DNA from: a virus
Length of the DNA: 53,213 bases
IMG/VR virus record: IMGVR_UViG_3300021406_000015
Coordinates: 1-53,213 of that record
Reading direction: 5' to 3' (one strand)
How positions within the stretch are numbered: position 1 is the stretch's first letter; each line of letters starts with the position of its first letter. The notes under the pieces are model-generated. The model had not been told where the DNA came from. It ran no database searches and saw only the letters and a program-made list of their open reading frames with translations. The position numbers and the translations under genes are program-made. This document shows positions 9,967-50,382 of this stretch, in pieces.

Positions 9967-10042
9967 TGGGGCAGCCGGGGTGAGTCGAACACCCTTTGAA
10001 CGCTTTAGAGGAGCGCCACATAATCCGTTCTGTCACGGCTGC
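9967..10042 (-). tRNA. tRNA-Arg(TCT) with C33
   Basis: Acceptor GCAGCCG/CGGCTGC with CCA, anticodon arm GCGCT-CCTCTAA-AGCGT, so position 33 is C. T-arm GGGTG-TTCGACT-CACCC. Confidence 0.87.
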
Positions 10043-19419: not shown

Positions 19420-20208
19420 TTATTTCCATTTTTTGTTTGGATCGGACGTTCTTGTCGGTATCGGGCGGCGCGGAGCAGCAGGCTTGGCTGGAATACCGCC
19501 ACTATGCGGAATACGGCTTGTCACAGTACCAACGCCAACAGTTTTATCGTCGTCATCAGCGGTCTTCATTCCAACAGATGCGCGCATTGACCGAGTGGTA
19601 TTTTCACTCATGAAGCTGCGCGATCCTGATGCTTGTGCTCTTCCCATACTCATGGTCGCCGCTGCCATAGTGGCGTAAGTTGCATGTGCGTTGTTCGCAT
19701 TATAGGAAGCAGATGCACCAACACCTATACCCAGAGACTGCGCGTCATCCCATGTCTCCGGCTGTGTGCCGAGATATGTAAACGTCCAGTTGCCTCTTTT
19801 CACGCGCTCGTCAATTGCAGAGTGTAGCGCATCCTTTGACCACTCGCGGCTGGAGTTCTCCTGTCCATCGGTGACGATCACAACAATGGCCTTGTCAAAG
19901 GTCAGCGACTTGTTGTCGTCAATAGCCTGCAACGTCTTTCCGACAGCATCATAGAGAGCGGTTGCGTTTCTTGGGCCATGCTTCTTGAGGATCGTTCCAT
20001 CTACGTTCGCGATCTTATCGCCGATATGCGGGGTTTCGATCACGGTGTCAAATGTGGTCAACGAGAACAAGTACTCAATCTCGTCATCTTTCTTTTCGTC
20101 CGCTTGCAGATTCTCGACATAAGTCTTGAATCCGTTAAGCGTCTCATCCCACACCGTTGCCATACTCCCCGACCGATCCTGAATAAATGAAACAAGAACC
20201 TTCTTCAT
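19420..20208 (-). CDS. von Willebrand A domain protein
   Basis: I place the start at 20208, where ATG overlaps the TGA of the Cro-like gene and follows AGAGGAGATGGAG; the product is 262 residues. Residues 1-165 are a vWA domain with MIDAS residues DRSGSM, the threonine in NATALYDAVG, and VIVTDGQENSS. The C-terminal 100 residues are Gly/Ala/Ser-rich with a proline-basic tail. Phage and plasmid vWA proteins of this kind act as metal-dependent protein-binding modules. Its translational coupling to a repressor-like gene and the presence of a second vWA protein, Ro60, are notable. Confidence 0.88.
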   Translation of the reverse strand: MKKVLVSFIQDRSGSMATVWDETLNGFKTYVENLQADEKKDDEIEYLFSLTTFDTVIETPHIGDKIANVDGTILKKHGPRNATALYDAVGKTLQAIDDNKSLTFDKAIVVIVTDGQENSSREWSKDALHSAIDERVKRGNWTFTYLGTQPETWDDAQSLGIGVGASASYNANNAHATYATMAAATMSMGRAQASGSRSFMSENTTRSMRASVGMKTADDDDKTVGVGTVTSRIPHSGGIPAKPAAPRRPIPTRTSDPNKKWK

Positions 20209-20417
20209 CTCCATCTCCTCTTGACATAAATTTTTGTGACCGTGGTTTGGCACTCAAGATCGAGATGGTCAAGCAGCTTTGGTCCGGGCTCGCGTTTGTC
20301 GCTGTACACATCGCTTAGATAAGCAGCAGAACAGCCTATTGTCTTTGCATAAGTACGCAGAGAACGAGTCCCCTGCTTCTCCCGGAGTTTCTTGATTACA
20401 TCCTCTTTGCGCCACAT
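20205..20417 (-). CDS. Cro/C1-type HTH regulator
   Basis: A 70-residue protein with a helix-turn-helix: SLRTYAKTIGCSAAYLSDVY, then SDKREPGPKLLDHL, the pattern of small Cro-like repressors. The promoter TTGACA-N17-TACAGT lies so close that the predicted start is the A of the ATG, so the message would be leaderless, as lambda cI is from PRM. A palindrome copy lies about 70 bp upstream of the promoter. It is a candidate reader of the dispersed palindrome. Confidence 0.85.
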   Translation of the reverse strand: MWRKEDVIKKLREKQGTRSLRTYAKTIGCSAAYLSDVYSDKREPGPKLLDHLDLECQTTVTKIYVKRRWR

Positions 20418-20856: not shown

Positions 20857-21129
20857 TTACTTGGTCGCCACCCACTCAAACTCACCGCTGTCTTGGATGC
20901 GATATATATCGATCACGTCATGCTCTGGCATCATGAACGTGTGCGATGGCGTCACTGGAGACGCATCTGAGGAACAGCCTGTCACAATATTCCGATAAAC
21001 GTACCGGTAGGTGTATATGCCAGCGCTGGGAACTATAAACGGTGTCGTATACGTTTGGATCTTCGACTTCGGTAGAATCGCTGCCGCTACAGCACCAACC
21101 AATGTCGAAAGAAAGTTTCTACGATTCAT
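20857..21129 (-). CDS. Tat-signal protein resembling a segment of the phage tail protein
   Basis: The ATG at 21129 follows TTTAGGAATGCAG and gives 90 residues. Residues 1-20 form a twin-arginine signal (NRRNFLSTLVGAVAAAILP). The mature part, YRYVYRNIVTGCSSDASPVT with HDVIDIYRIQDSGEFEWVAT, closely parallels residues about 593-660 of the 1354-residue tail protein (YRYVYRSTATGAVSNPSPES, then VDVIDYYRIDEGLDNFTYVA). So the phage seems to encode a secreted copy of one of its own tail modules. A receptor-masking or superinfection-exclusion role is an inference. Confidence 0.75.
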   Translation of the reverse strand: MNRRNFLSTLVGAVAAAILPKSKIQTYTTPFIVPSAGIYTYRYVYRNIVTGCSSDASPVTPSHTFMMPEHDVIDIYRIQDSGEFEWVATK

Positions 21130-21146: not shown

Positions 21147-21220
21147 TGGTACTCCCGACGAGATTTGAACTCGCACCAAGTGGGTTAGGGCCACCTACTC
21201 TGCCATTGAGCTACGGGAGT
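21147..21220 (-). tRNA. amber suppressor tRNA (anticodon CTA), C33
   Basis: Acceptor ACTCCCG/CGGGAGT with CCA, D-stem GCTC/GAGT, anticodon arm GGTGG-CCCTAAC-CCACT, T-arm GCGAG-TTCAAAT-CTCGT. By position the anticodon is CTA, which reads UAG. Position 33 is C. The charging amino acid cannot be told. Confidence 0.82.
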
Positions 21221-37993: not shown

Positions 37994-38260
37994 TTAGCTA
38001 ATCCAACACTTTATCCATCGGTCTGATAATTGAACGTTCAACTTCTCTAAGTCGAGTCCACGATCCTCTGCACTCTGCAACGCAGACCTCAGCGTCTTAA
38101 CAAGACGTGGGCTTAACTGAACTTTACTACCTGAAATAACGACGAGATCCGCCTGCCTATCGCTTTGGCTGGTTTCTCCTGAATTTTGCGCTTTAGTCGT
38201 AACGGCTACTGCCGCAATTCCTGCCGCCATCACACTCTTTGAAAAAGTACGTCTATCCAT
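37994..38260 (-). CDS. Tat-signal small protein
   Basis: The 88-residue protein begins with a twin-arginine signal MDRRTFSKSVMAAGIAAVAV and is exported in a folded state if the host has Tat. The mature domain (LVVISGSKVQLSPRLVKTLR) is short and unrecognised. The ribosome site is strong (AAGGAGGGGTGTA). It is the second Tat-signal protein of the window. Regulatory or exclusion functions are possible. Confidence 0.72.
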   Translation of the reverse strand: MDRRTFSKSVMAAGIAAVAVTTKAQNSGETSQSDRQADLVVISGSKVQLSPRLVKTLRSALQSAEDRGLDLEKLNVQLSDRWIKCWIS

Positions 38261-45255: not shown

Positions 45256-48200
45256 TTATATAGCGGCATCTGGTGATCCTTCCGGCCCTCCAAAAGGAGT
45301 GATAATTTGGTAGTTTGCACTACTGCCCCACCACTTGACTTTTGCTTCACACCTACTCTTGAACAGAAAGAATGGCGATGCAGAACTCAAACGGTAAGCA
45401 ATCAGTTTGAACTTGTTTGCTGGAATCGGCGTCTTATACTTCGTCTGCAATCCTCCAGATGCCGGAATGGTCAATGTAATGGTCGGGAGTCCATCTGTCG
45501 GTCCACCACGAAAATCGAGTTCAAGAGTGAGATCAGTCGTGGACGCGTATGCGATATTCATTTCACGAATATGTTGCCATCCCATTAAACCATGTGATGT
45601 GTATTCACTCTGCCATTCGACCACGGATTCAGGATACGGCTCCATAACCCACTGACACTGCCATCCGAGATCGGGACCATGACGCCAGAGGACTCCATCT
45701 GTCGAGATGATTCTAACCTGATGGGCAAGGAACGGGGGTGTGAATGTAAGAGGGATAATCACCTGATGGGCAGCGGTTATCGGTGATTCATTCGGTGTGA
45801 AAATCGCGAAATCGTCTGATCTCTGAATTGCAATAGCTTTAGCATTGCTAAAGGTATTGGCCTCCAGAAGAAGGCCTTGAATAAACTTGTTCCCCGGCGT
45901 TCCGCAGTCCTCCCATACAGTTGGACGATCCTGCGTAGCCTCTGGGAACACTGAAAATGACGGTTGCCAGAGGTCCAAGACGTTCCCGGCTGCTGTAGGC
46001 CAATTGAGCACCATGCCTACGTCGATCAACTCATCACCATAGCCATCGATGAAGTCGATGATGTACGGAAGCAACCCTCCTGTGGTTCCTGCTAGTGCTG
46101 CTGGGGAAAAACCAGTAATCGTCGTACCATACCGGTTGGCGTACAAAGCAACATTGATCACGCTTGTCGGCTGTACGATAGCCTTGATGAAGATATCGCC
46201 AAGACGCTTGAATGCGCGTGCATCACCAGCATTCTGTGACCCTGTGGCAACTACGGAAACCGCAACCTCCGGGTTGCCAGATCCAAACAGCCGTACACTT
46301 CCATCTGTGCAGCCAACCATTACCGTATCTGTGTTTGGACCTTTCTCCCATGCGTGTGTTGTGACTGGGAACTGATAAACATCCGGCACCCATCCCTTAC
46401 CAATTAGGTCAAATACTAGCGTTCTTGGAGTTCCGGTCGCATCAGCGTAATCGTAATACAGAACCGTATCCGCGTAAGTTAGCTGCTGCGCCTCTGGAAT
46501 ATCGTCATTGGGAGGGTAGATCGTGTATGCACCAATTGTGATCGGTTGAGGGACAACGCCTTCGCGCGGAAACAGGTTGTAAATGTCGTTGGTGATGCAA
46601 ACATCCTGACCGCCGAATTCGCAGGCATAGATACCGTCTTTTGCGCGGAAAAAGGCTGTATCCCCACCGTCTGTGCAGACGCAGTTTGGAATATACAGGC
46701 CCTTAGATCCTGTCGCTTCAACAACGTTGAACGGTGTTCCTTCTACGCCCTCTACCGTAGCCAGTGCTTGATCGTATGTTGGATAGATCAGCCACCGTCT
46801 TTCTGCCGTCCATACCATCGACATTGCGGCAGTTTTTACGCCATTGATCAGAGCTTCATCCGGAGACGTAACGGGAATCTGATTCGTCTGTGGTGCAGAA
46901 TCTGGATTGTTTCCCTTGGTGAAATACAAGGTTCCGGGATTAAGTTCATCGCCCACCGCAAACATATACGCAACGTTGTCTGTCGGCCCCCATAGATACG
47001 GCAGGGGTTGAGCCGCAAGATCGGGTTCAGGAATCTCGTAGGCAAGATTTGTTCCGTCAGGGACTCCCGGAATAATCATCGTTGTAGTTGAAGTCGGTCT
47101 CGAATAGAGTGAATATGCCAGTGACGTCGGAGAACCAATCTGAATCAGTGTTCCCGGTAACCAACGAGTGTTGAATTGATCTCCGGAAACCCACGTAATC
47201 TGTCCACCGGTTACATTGATGATTCCTTTGTGTGGCAGATCGATTACGGGGAATGGTTCGTAGTTATCGAAGTCCAGAATCTGGTTTGCCGCGACTTCAA
47301 GGTCCGTCAATTCGTCGGTGATCGGTGTAGGCGGTTCTGTGTTAGGTCCTGTTGCAACATACGTGAAGTTGTCTAATCCTTCATCGATACGGTAATAATC
47401 AATCACGTCTACTTGCGGGTCTGGGGAATAGACAGGCGTTACTGTATTGGCAAGAACTGGCGTTGACTGACTTGGTGACTCCGGAGATGGGTTCGACACC
47501 GCACCGGTTGCAGTGCTCCGATAAACATAGCGATATGAAACCCCAGTCCTTACCCCAATCGGCAGTGGTGGAATTGTCGGAGAGTTCGGCGATGTCGATA
47601 CCGCCGTCATGATCAATGTAGCCTGATCTTTGTCCCAGTAGTCCCAATCGATTTCTACGTCATAAACGCCTGTAGCCGGGAATGTGATATTGAGGTTCGT
47701 GGTCAGCGCAGGACTGGTATCGCTGCCGCTTGTTCCACCTCCTACAAACAAAATCGGTAGAGAACTAAGGACAGTGATCGTCTGTCCGCGTGATGCTGGT
47801 ACTGCTGCTGCTCCACCAGTGACGGTCGCAGAAGCACCGCCACTGATGCCGAACATGATTTGATCTTTGTATTGCAATGAGAACTGATACGTTCCAGCGG
47901 TCGGAACAAATAAGCTTCCAGTCACGCATGCGTTGAAGTCTTGATACCCTTCTGTTTCCAAGGCGGGATTGAAAAGCTGGATCGTGCTTGCAACTGATCC
48001 ATCTGGATTCAGGACATTCCAGTTTACCGGCGTTGTGTTGTTCGTCGGCGATTGCATCGACCACGAGTTGTTGGTTGGTGACGTGTCCGGGACTGGATCT
48101 GTCAGTGATCTTGGCATGCCAGAACCGGTATCGTTCGGATTCTTCCAGATGTACTCGCCAACTGGACCGCTATGTGGAGATCCGCCGCCTGCGGGAGGAG

Positions 48201-49320
48201 GTGTTCCCCAAACATTTGCTGTCACGTTGCCAAGAGTAGAAATGACCGTCGCAATCGCTGCTACCGTCACCGACCAATTGACGGTAAAATTTCCGCTATT
48301 TGCGGAAAACGAGTTCGCCGATGAATCAATACCGATTTGAAGCTGAGAGGCTCCACTCGGCACCGTTACCGTTGTTCCGGCACCTATGAAGAATACGAGA
48401 GGCAGAGACCCGCCCGGAGCAACAACATTTCCTGCGGTGTCAGTGAAAGCTCCAACAATGATGGACGGAGTTCCGGATATGCCGCTGGTACCACCGGGAT
48501 ACGTTGGGCCAGTAGGACCAGCAGTTGCAGGCGTGGCCGCTGGATTACCGTTAACTGTTGCAGTCCCGGTGACTGTCAATGTAATCGTAGAACCCGCAAT
48601 CAACTCCGGCGCATCACCTGTGATGATGACTGGAGCCGTTCCATCGGATGCATTTGTCTGACCGTAGTTATACGGCGATGGGTTCGCACCGCCTACGTTC
48701 GTCCACGGGATGGTAGTGGCAGGAAGATCGTCAGTCCCGGTTGTCGTTGTGTCCTGCGTTGTTACTGTCGGGGCAATCTGGGGCTCTTCGATACCAGTCT
48801 TAAAAATTAAACCATCTGACCGCACCTTGGTTGCGCCAAAACAGTACGATGTTGGAGTAACCGCAAGAGGGTAAGTCGTCGGTCCGTTGTCGATCAGAAA
48901 CTTCGTTGTAATCGTTACATCTTCTGACGGATCTCCTGTGTATATCCACGGCTGTACGGAGGCATTTGGGCGGAATGGGCAAAAGGCAATCTCGTTTCCA
49001 CTATAGCCAGTGCCTATTCTGTTGCCAGCAACATACATCGCTCCTGCTGCACCGATGACCCGGATGAAGCCCCCCGCAGGTCCACCCGGTGTAGTGTCGT
49101 TCAGAATTGTGAGACTGTTGATCGGGGTAGGAAGCGCAGAGTAAATCGCTGCACCCTCTGTTGAACGCGAAACGATTTGACCTTGTTTAAGAGCCCGGAT
49201 GTTTTGCAAATAAGAATACTTATTCGGTTCAAGAGAATCGAGCGGGTGTACAGTGTCTATTCCACCCGGCTGAAATCTTTGTCCGTTTTTGTCGCGTTCG
49301 TATTGTTGTGGTTGAGCCAT
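45256..49320 (-). CDS. giant tail protein (nozzle/tubular protein-like)
   Basis: The 1354-residue protein starts MAQPQQYERDKNGQRFQPGG then DTVHPLDSLEPNKYSYLQNI and RALKQGQIVSR, which matches the beginning of podophage tail tubular or nozzle proteins. Long beta-sandwich and propeller-like stretches follow, including YRYVYRSTATGAVSNPSPES (about 593) and a late domain RWLIYPTYDQALATVEGVEG (about 835). It is the largest gene of the window and probably forms the tail tip or a host-contact module. A Tat-secreted gene at 20857 copies its residue 593-660 module. Confidence 0.7.
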   Translation of the reverse strand: MAQPQQYERDKNGQRFQPGGIDTVHPLDSLEPNKYSYLQNIRALKQGQIVSRSTEGAAIYSALPTPINSLTILNDTTPGGPAGGFIRVIGAAGAMYVAGNRIGTGYSGNEIAFCPFRPNASVQPWIYTGDPSEDVTITTKFLIDNGPTTYPLAVTPTSYCFGATKVRSDGLIFKTGIEEPQIAPTVTTQDTTTTGTDDLPATTIPWTNVGGANPSPYNYGQTNASDGTAPVIITGDAPELIAGSTITLTVTGTATVNGNPAATPATAGPTGPTYPGGTSGISGTPSIIVGAFTDTAGNVVAPGGSLPLVFFIGAGTTVTVPSGASQLQIGIDSSANSFSANSGNFTVNWSVTVAAIATVISTLGNVTANVWGTPPPAGGGSPHSGPVGEYIWKNPNDTGSGMPRSLTDPVPDTSPTNNSWSMQSPTNNTTPVNWNVLNPDGSVASTIQLFNPALETEGYQDFNACVTGSLFVPTAGTYQFSLQYKDQIMFGISGGASATVTGGAAAVPASRGQTITVLSSLPILFVGGGTSGSDTSPALTTNLNITFPATGVYDVEIDWDYWDKDQATLIMTAVSTSPNSPTIPPLPIGVRTGVSYRYVYRSTATGAVSNPSPESPSQSTPVLANTVTPVYSPDPQVDVIDYYRIDEGLDNFTYVATGPNTEPPTPITDELTDLEVAANQILDFDNYEPFPVIDLPHKGIINVTGGQITWVSGDQFNTRWLPGTLIQIGSPTSLAYSLYSRPTSTTTMIIPGVPDGTNLAYEIPEPDLAAQPLPYLWGPTDNVAYMFAVGDELNPGTLYFTKGNNPDSAPQTNQIPVTSPDEALINGVKTAAMSMVWTAERRWLIYPTYDQALATVEGVEGTPFNVVEATGSKGLYIPNCVCTDGGDTAFFRAKDGIYACEFGGQDVCITNDIYNLFPREGVVPQPITIGAYTIYPPNDDIPEAQQLTYADTVLYYDYADATGTPRTLVFDLIGKGWVPDVYQFPVTTHAWEKGPNTDTVMVGCTDGSVRLFGSGNPEVAVSVVATGSQNAGDARAFKRLGDIFIKAIVQPTSVINVALYANRYGTTITGFSPAALAGTTGGLLPYIIDFIDGYGDELIDVGMVLNWPTAAGNVLDLWQPSFSVFPEATQDRPTVWEDCGTPGNKFIQGLLLEANTFSNAKAIAIQRSDDFAIFTPNESPITAAHQVIIPLTFTPPFLAHQVRIISTDGVLWRHGPDLGWQCQWVMEPYPESVVEWQSEYTSHGLMGWQHIREMNIAYASTTDLTLELDFRGGPTDGLPTITLTIPASGGLQTKYKTPIPANKFKLIAYRLSSASPFFLFKSRCEAKVKWWGSSANYQIITPFGGPEGSPDAAI
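46893..46907. repeat. 15-bp palindrome, diverged copy in the tail gene
   Basis: GTGCAGAATCTGGAT, 13 of 15 consensus bases. Confidence 0.5.
47272..47286. repeat. 15-bp palindrome, diverged copy in the tail gene
   Basis: GTCCAGAATCTGGTT, 13 of 15 consensus bases, encoding QILDF. Confidence 0.6.
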
Positions 49321-49374: not shown

Positions 49375-50382
49375 TTATTTAGAAGTGCTGTACTCTTGTT
49401 CTCTGATGAATACACCACGTTGTTCTATAGTCGCACCATCTTTCATCTGATACGCAACAATTTCCGCGTCCTCCCTATCAAATATCGCTGCCCACATTCT
49501 ACTCTTGATCCACTTAAAATCACCATCGTTGCGCGTTCTCTTGCCTCTGACGTAACGTTTTAAGTCACCCTCTCCTTTTACGACCATAAACTGATCTGCT
49601 TCGCGTTCTCGCTTTTCTTTTAGTCTTCGCCTCTGACGCTGATCTGCCTGACATTTGTCTGTACAGAATTTTTGTGTTGGCTTAATGGTAAAGTATGTTT
49701 TGCCGCAAGAACACAGCTTCTCCTTCGGTTTTCGCTCTTCAATGATCTGCTCTATTGTTTTGCCTTGTTCAAGGTGATAATGCAACAACGATGGATCTAA
49801 ATCCAACTCTCTGGACCAATCAACGAATAGCTTTTCTTCACCAAGTGCCGCAATTCTTCGACTACTGCGTTTATTTCTAGCTTGATCGCCACGCGGAATC
49901 CATTTGCAGTTTCCCGGTTCATAATCGCCGTTTACATCTATTCTCTCGATGGTTAGTCCGCCAGATGGTCCCATATCATCATAGAAATTCTGAAAACTAT
50001 TTAACCATCGCCGACAGACGGTAATTCCTCTCCCACCGTAATCTTTATAGTGATGGAGATTTGGATTGAGACACCTTTCCTTCATAGCTATCCAACTATT
50101 CCACTCAGAAGTATGGCTCATGCCGTGGTCAACTTCTTTCACGACTTCTGCGTTATAGCAACCACAACTCTGACTGACACCATTCCGCAAATTACATCGG
50201 CTGATTTCTTTGATTGTTCCGCATTCACACTGGCATTTCCAATATATGTATCGCCCACGATTAGGCGCTCTTTTCAAAACAGTCCAACGGCCATAGTGTT
50301 CGCCAGTTAAATTTATAAATTTTCTACTCCAAGTATGCTGTTTGGTATTCTCAACCCAGTAAGGTTTGCCCCTTTCCCTCAT
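49375..50382 (-). CDS. HNH homing-type endonuclease
   Basis: I use the ATG at 50382 behind CGGGAGACAGAATA, giving 335 residues; an upstream start at 50454 would overlap the adaptor gene by over 100 nt. Core: zinc part CQCECGTIKEISRC with SCGCY, SEWNSWIAMKERCLNPN, YYKDYGGRGITVCRRWLNSF-like block, DDMGPSGGLTIERIDVNGDY and EPGNCKWIPRGDQARNKRSS. A second finger CSCGKTYFTIKPTQKFC follows with a long basic helix. It lies between two structural genes on their strand, as an inserted mobile nuclease. Confidence 0.85.
   Translation of the reverse strand: MRERGKPYWVENTKQHTWSRKFINLTGEHYGRWTVLKRAPNRGRYIYWKCQCECGTIKEISRCNLRNGVSQSCGCYNAEVVKEVDHGMSHTSEWNSWIAMKERCLNPNLHHYKDYGGRGITVCRRWLNSFQNFYDDMGPSGGLTIERIDVNGDYEPGNCKWIPRGDQARNKRSSRRIAALGEEKLFVDWSRELDLDPSLLHYHLEQGKTIEQIIEERKPKEKLCSCGKTYFTIKPTQKFCTDKCQADQRQRRRLKEKREREADQFMVVKGEGDLKRYVRGKRTRNDGDFKWIKSRMWAAIFDREDAEIVAYQMKDGATIEQRGVFIREQEYSTSK

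Follow-up and report, generated by a model that had tools for sequence, protein, structure and literature searches.

The superinfection exclusion morons HK97 gp15 and P22 SieA act at DNA entry and, as may hold for the proteins described here, are small, envelope-placed phage proteins encoded outside the lytic core; the present proteins differ from them in looking like pieces of virion or packaging proteins. The Tat pathway exports folded proteins from the cytoplasm, which is the site of phage assembly. Both morons are referenced in the available text of PMC11364771, which also presents Tai (tail assembly inhibition) and Tab as prophage- or satellite-encoded blockers of tail assembly. Tai and Tab are mobile-element proteins that make competitors fail at virion assembly, an effect that the class described here may share, whereas the available part of that source does not present them, unlike this class, as virion-protein copies or as carriers of a Tat tag. 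A search of PADLOC-DB (2023 release, which may lack Tai and Tab families) gave no match at E ≤ 0.1 for the small protein P0001 studied here or for nine sister proteins. A further parallel is offered by Tat hitchhiker complexes such as PaoABC, in which, according to the consulted section of PMC4273604, a signal-bearing partner carries a signal-less bound protein through Tat; that case concerns host enzyme maturation, whereas here the signal sits on a phage-encoded virion fragment and any carriage is hypothetical. No prior description of Tat-tagged virion fragments was found in the open-access literature.

The window, meaning the whole stretch of DNA that was analysed, comprises the 53,213 nucleotides of IMG/VR record IMGVR_UViG_3300021406_000015. 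The features relevant to P0001 and to the tail protein that it resembles are as follows.

20857..21129, minus strand: P0001, a 90-aa ORF (coordinates including the TAA stop) with a Tat-like leader and a tail-module-like passenger
21070..21129, minus strand: Tat-like leader of P0001, residues 1-20, with RRxFL and, after it, an uncharged and largely hydrophobic stretch
20860..21069, minus strand: passenger of P0001, residues 21-90, with homology to the tail module
21147..21220, minus strand: tRNA with CTA anticodon, directly upstream of the P0001 gene and inside a tRNA array
37994..38260, minus strand: second Tat-like small protein, 88 aa, with an RR leader
45256..49320, minus strand: 1354-aa virion/tail protein containing the copied module; 'virion structural protein' is the annotation of its relatives in phages Tunturi_1 and Tunturi_2
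47350..47538, minus strand: copied module, residues 595-657 of the tail protein, the BLASTP match to P0001
48142..48177, minus strand: tail-protein motif PHSGPVGEYIWK, residues 382-393, which recurs in small proteins of L015 (Tat-tagged) and G014 (non-Tat)

Sequence comparison gives good support to a recurrent class of soil-phage proteins that appear to combine a Tat-type leader with swapped pieces of virion or packaging proteins. Members were defined as proteins of at most 260 aa in which a leader precedes a passenger with homology to a large protein of the same virus that serves in the virion or in packaging. Such proteins were identified in the window, in Tunturi_1 and Tunturi_2, and in contigs G011, G013 and G012, with G002, G040, G042 and G036 added by own-contig matches (the partners of G040 and G042 have no PHROG match). 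Judged by these homologies, P0001 is not a single case, and members are also present in cultured phages.

The P0001 gene has its ATG at 21129, preceded by AGGA at a distance of six bases, and its leader, MNRRNFLSTLVGAVAAAIL, contains the twin-arginine consensus RRxFL and an uncharged hydrophobic stretch. The Pfam TAT_signal model aligned to residues 1-19 with an E-value of 0.0031 and 17.8 bits, below its 22.7-bit cut-off, and NCBIfam TIGR01409 gave 12.9 bits against a cut-off of 16.7; the leader is therefore termed Tat-like, and P0001 is not treated as a proven Tat substrate. Three sister proteins (L015, L170 and G013) score above the TIGR01409 cut-off. The sole independent relative of P0001 in IMG/VR is a 107-aa protein of locus L064 (433-753) with a passenger 69% identical; a second record, L003, is 100% identical to the window over 8221 bases and represents the same virus, not independent evidence. 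In the L064 protein RRxFL is retained and the remainder of the leader has diverged. The ratio dN/dS between the pair, estimated at about 0.16 (NG86) to 0.24 (YN00) over 52 aligned codons, points to purifying selection but involves few sites and is indicative only. Given a diverged ortholog in a second virus, P0001 is, on sequence grounds, a real gene. PHROG contained no match for P0001, P0002 or P0003, solved structures gave none for P0001, and the scanned genome contigs contained no relative of the tail module or of the P0001/L064 pair.

The initial annotation of this DNA, made from its letters alone, had described P0001 as an exported mimic of a module in the tail protein of the same phage; a Tat-like leader and the homology were both confirmed. 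In the pairwise alignment it had called for, residues 40-89 of P0001 matched tail residues 595-657 with 25 of 63 positions identical and a pairwise E-value of 4e-9. A search of the entire virus record with P0001 gave the tail module and no further place (E 4.8e-4), and a profile of the module recovered P0001 in the same record at E 3e-4. The passenger scored 41.2 bits against the tail protein and the best shuffle 35.0, such that none of 2000 shuffles reached the passenger score; among the 33 window ORFs of at least 200 aa, the tail protein ranked first with 39.3 bits and the next different ORF had 20.0. The likeness is therefore more than chance. The passenger lacks a middle loop of about 12 residues found in tail modules, and it stops after VAT where the tail module continues.

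The tail protein has relatives along its length in Tunturi_1 and Tunturi_2, which are presented in the available text of PMC11924767 as cultured podoviruses of Acidobacteriota. Besides the window, 15 IMG/VR loci were found to have the module in conserved form, 13 of which were aligned with the window. All 16 IMG/VR records that encode the tail protein, counting the window, have one strong copy per virus, as does Tunturi_2 (E 2.6e-11); the window record has one additional weak place (E 0.117). The best non-orthologous BLAST match is the own tail protein both for the P0001 passenger (39.3 bits, next 37.4) and for the L064 passenger (38.9 bits, next 34.3). To this extent the proposed specificity of the module for the phage's own tail stood; it was undercut by a 17-row tree in which the P0001/L064 pair falls, with weak support (71/87), outside the tail modules, by saturated synonymous sites between P0001 and its own tail, and by the common fold described below. 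Origin of the passenger from the phage's own tail gene is possible on these alignments, and a recent duplication of that gene was rejected in view of the saturated sites and the tree. The gene adjoining that of the tail protein (49375-50454) encodes an HNH endonuclease (PHROG 374, E 1e-67).

The wider idea that export-tagged copies of a phage's own virion proteins exist was borne out in other phages. One set of genomes was picked for the tail protein or the host and not for Tat leaders; it comprised contigs G006, G008, G011, G013, G014 and G018, locus L015 (a 10-kb piece of G012) and Tunturi 1-4. In this set, with Tat-like proteins limited to 55-260 aa (which excluded a 45-aa candidate in L018), five of eight Tat-like proteins matched an ORF of at least 300 aa in the same virus (E < 0.01), compared with three of 383 controls (Fisher p 4e-8), where controls were filtered for overlap and Tat proteins were not. 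No own large-protein match was found for the other three. The Tunturi_1 and Tunturi_2 members are one base apart and represent one event, leaving four of seven independent, and the Tunturi_1 and L015 cases had been seen before this count, the first cases having been found by eye or exploration. Tunturi_1 gp97 (XJP11587.1, 'hypothetical protein') and Tunturi_2 gp99 consist of a leader and a passenger resembling the capsid N-terminus, gp97 being 40% identical over 52 aa to residues 5-56 of its own major head protein, gp8. The G012/L015 passenger corresponds in two short segments to the 1200-aa tail protein of the same virus, with a best single E-value of 0.006, and includes the motif PxSGxVxxYIWK, as in the tail protein. 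Across 42,189 ORFs this pattern occurred, besides L015, only in the tail proteins of the group and in one G014 protein of 163 aa that has no Tat leader (L392:5378-5866), whose motif, PNSSPVASYVWKNP, is much like that of the tail protein of the same virus. The motif in the G014 protein may, from its sequence, be a short binding signal, and as this protein carries the tail motif and no Tat leader, the leader is not always needed.

A second survey was based on the leader itself. The pattern MNRR-N-F[LF] gave 94 stretches in IMG/VR, with figures taken from the 80 matches listed; among these, 76 of 80 begin with MNRR, 68 of those 76 have at least 30 aa, 66 of the 68 contain a hydrophobic stretch, 65 of these being no longer than 206 aa, and the mature parts in the matches listed are of very many kinds. 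Passengers were then set against the ORFs of their own and of other contigs, taken whole except for G020, G046 and G050 (170 kb or more), which were left out. In a first pass of 63 Tat-like proteins on 55 contigs, five had an own-contig match to an ORF of at least 300 aa at E < 1e-3, compared with three of 484 small control ORFs and, at E < 0.05, none of 315 shuffles. With the addition of MDRRxFL contigs the set grew to 82 Tat-like proteins on 76 contigs (2.34 Mb), and matches to own large ORFs at E < 1e-3 were found for five of 82 Tat-like proteins and four of 701 controls (p 0.001), two groups that were not selected identically, since the controls kept a filter against longer overlapping ORFs and the Tat proteins did not. 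The 82 are those of 85 candidates that have M-x(1,2)-RR; the filter would have dropped 37 of the 85, most of them plausible. Three of the four control matches lie where a contig or piece ends, as would be expected of a single gene cut in two, and were counted anyway. The remaining 77 of 82 had no large-protein match in the same virus at this threshold.

The five matches in the enlarged set are those of the window (tail), G002, G040, G042 and G036. The partner in G002 is an ORF of 442 aa that weakly matches a capsid family (PHROG 14242, E 0.0015), those of G040 and G042 are ORFs of 425 and 440 aa, and the G036 match consists of tail-fibre repeats. Contigs G044 and G028 encode capsid proteins of PHROG 283, and an HMM built from five such capsids was run on the 82 passengers, 701 controls and 820 shuffles (1603 sequences). 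The top five were all Tat passengers: G044 (capsid C-terminus, E 7e-7), FL170 (N-terminus, 1.5e-6), G052 (N-terminus, 5.8e-6), FL295 (C-terminus, 0.0047) and G062 (C-terminus, 0.023), with the best control at 0.99 and the best shuffle at 2.6, for a capsid family picked after some of its Tat-passenger cases had been seen. Among these five, presence of this capsid on the contig of the passenger is established just for G044 and G062. The G036 repeats and the weak FL295 and G062 capsid matches were counted and not leaned on. Other Tat-leader proteins recovered include a 64-73-aa family in L105, L125, L126 and L132 with a conserved end segment like LTAxxxNELxxRINDLE, a protein of L171 (3709-4113) with a tailspike-like passenger (PHROG tail fiber, E 3.3e-4), and proteins of L119 (5824-6102) and L122 (2683-2985) whose passengers appear beta-helix or lectin-like by eye only.

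In G011 and G013 a leader precedes a passenger that copies the C-terminal nuclease domain of terL, the large terminase, the G011 copy being 43% identical to the terminase over 205 aa (E about 3e-46). Ten alignment columns are acidic in all six aligned terminases; the acid is gone from both copies at columns 145, 235 and 310 (D145 and D310 being replaced in both) and from one copy at columns 309 and 285, and column 326 is D or N. We take columns 145 and 310 to be the metal-binding acids of the terminase nuclease motifs, with which they coincide. Of the 28 fully invariant columns covered, 23 and 21 are kept in the two copies, and the copies differ from each other by dN 0.44 and dS 2.2 (dN/dS about 0.2). 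These patterns suggest that the fold has been kept under selection and that the activity is gone, so that the copies are probably mimics and not enzymes. Export of an active nuclease to the periplasm was rejected, as the presumed active-site acids are replaced in both copies. The 915-aa terminase ORF of G013 (L389:1-2745) has an intein-like stretch by eye.

The reading that we tentatively favour, at somewhat less than even probability for the class and its effect together and lower for the exact step, is that these proteins are signal-tagged decoys that interfere with the assembly of competing phages. The leader would place the fragment at or across the inner membrane, and the fragment would retain the binding surface of its parent and lose the parent's activity. 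It could then bind the intact counterpart of its parent from a related competitor, or a partner of that protein, and the bound competitor protein would be tethered or would hitchhike through Tat, such that assembly fails. Expressed early or constitutively, the fragment gene would behave as a moron-type interference gene. Tat exports out of the compartment in which assembly takes place, and a role in assembly therefore needs tethering or hitchhiking. The favoured reading is limited by the 77 of 82 and three of eight Tat-like proteins without an own match, the second one of the window included, by a P0001 leader that scores under both curated cut-offs, by the shortness of some matches and by the G014 protein, which has the tail motif and no leader. 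In a broader form, which we consider somewhat unlikely, phages would maintain a leader cassette with which non-functional fragments of their virion and packaging machinery are tagged for Tat, and these would be membrane-directed traps that remove the full-length proteins of rivals, or immune sensors, from action; such traps would resemble, in nature, an engineered Tat hitchhiker trap.

If the class is real, 'hypothetical' soil-phage proteins with Tat leaders become readable, each naming the virion protein that it imitates and thereby a target. The class would then add a route of phage-phage or phage-host conflict built of the phage's own parts, and since Tunturi_1 and Tunturi_2, both of which have a member, are in culture, the matter is open to immediate test.

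The main rival holds that the fragments are anti-defence decoys that imitate virion proteins sensed by immunity, the leader taking the sensor to or across the membrane. Non-functional copies such as those of the terminase suit a decoy, and the available text of PMC11364771 lists capsid, terminase and tail proteins among those that set off CapRel, Avs, DSR2, Septu and Tha. However, the analysis gave no sensor for these hosts and the copied regions vary among phages, and this explanation is considered unlikely.

The likeness of the leaders speaks for the class. The leader RRxFFKFLGIGAxAAxVAPK is closely similar in G011, G013 and L015, on terminase and tail passengers, and the Tunturi leader, SRRSFFKLFGAAAVVAPVAPK, is a diverged form of it on a capsid passenger; given this similarity, related leaders carry three kinds of passenger. 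In a second alternative, a frequent leader cassette might capture fragments of neighbouring late genes, some of which persist without a role, as the variety of source proteins and regions and the many leaders on passengers lacking known relatives would suggest. Against such by-products stand the dN/dS estimates for the P0001/L064 pair and for the terminase copies, the frames that stay open, and a leader motif that is retained while the rest of the leader diverges. As an account of the class it is distinctly unlikely; individual members may be by-products of gene shuffling.

Gene position is relevant to a third alternative, in which the fragment tethers the phage's own virion proteins at the membrane as an assembly or checkpoint site. 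The pieces, whether from capsid, terminase or tail, are all from proteins of late morphogenesis, the G011 and G013 genes lie directly downstream of terL, and the Tat ORF of G042 is just upstream of the ORF that it resembles. The L064 ortholog, however, sits among the genes of a tRNA array, with tRNA-Glu(ttc) on one side and tRNA-Asn(gtt) on the other; the window gene, likewise in such an array, is flanked by the same tRNA types with more genes intervening, and is far from the tail gene. Passengers also vary among close relatives, and a role in the phage's own assembly or release appears improbable.

Predicted structures were available for both modules, as the initial annotation had proposed, with uneven results: the P0001 model was poor (pLDDT 57.8), and the structure search was therefore limited to the tail module (pLDDT 73), which resembles beta-sandwich domains. 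In VIA the tail module showed domain-level likeness to the crAss001 tail muzzle (7qok; Z 6.6, below the confidence mark of the tool, 16% identity) and to a capsid domain of SPO1 (Z 6.9), and five crAss-like 'stabilization proteins' were among the best 22 matches listed in BFVD; nothing was found in the PDB with Foldseek at E ≤ 0.001 or in VIA at Z 8. As modelled, the fold is a common, widespread phage beta-sandwich, and the middling scores say no more. The predicted fold thus resembles domains of many phage proteins, so that the observation named in the initial annotation as refuting its idea, a widespread domain and not one peculiar to this tail protein, holds in part. We know of no stand-alone Tat-tagged copy of the domain shared with the crAss001 muzzle and the 'stabilization proteins'. 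An envelope module that blocks the adsorption or DNA entry of other phages, the form in which exclusion was first proposed for P0001, is the least probable reading and highly doubtful, since the Tat-like leader, the tail homology and an export compatible with a periplasmic site would fit it, but adsorption offers no role for a passenger from capsid or terminase and the likeness of the tail module is to a muzzle domain and not to a receptor-binding part, which also argues against the suggested occupation of the receptor.

The second small protein of the window that had been assigned a Tat signal, at 37994-38260, does have an RR leader. Its passenger had no match elsewhere in the window at E ≤ 10, no virion-like passenger was detected, and it had no relative in 42 other virus records. 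The window encodes 32 tRNA genes, including two with CTA anticodons (amber suppressor type; 9967-10042 and 21147-21220) that ARAGORN labels tRNA-Pyl. TAG ends 12 of the 46 open frames of at least 150 aa, and read-through adds at most 60 codons; given this usage and the short read-through, there is no clear sign of recoding. Near P0001 in the tRNA array, a 277-aa protein (19420-20253) appears by eye to be von Willebrand A domain-like.
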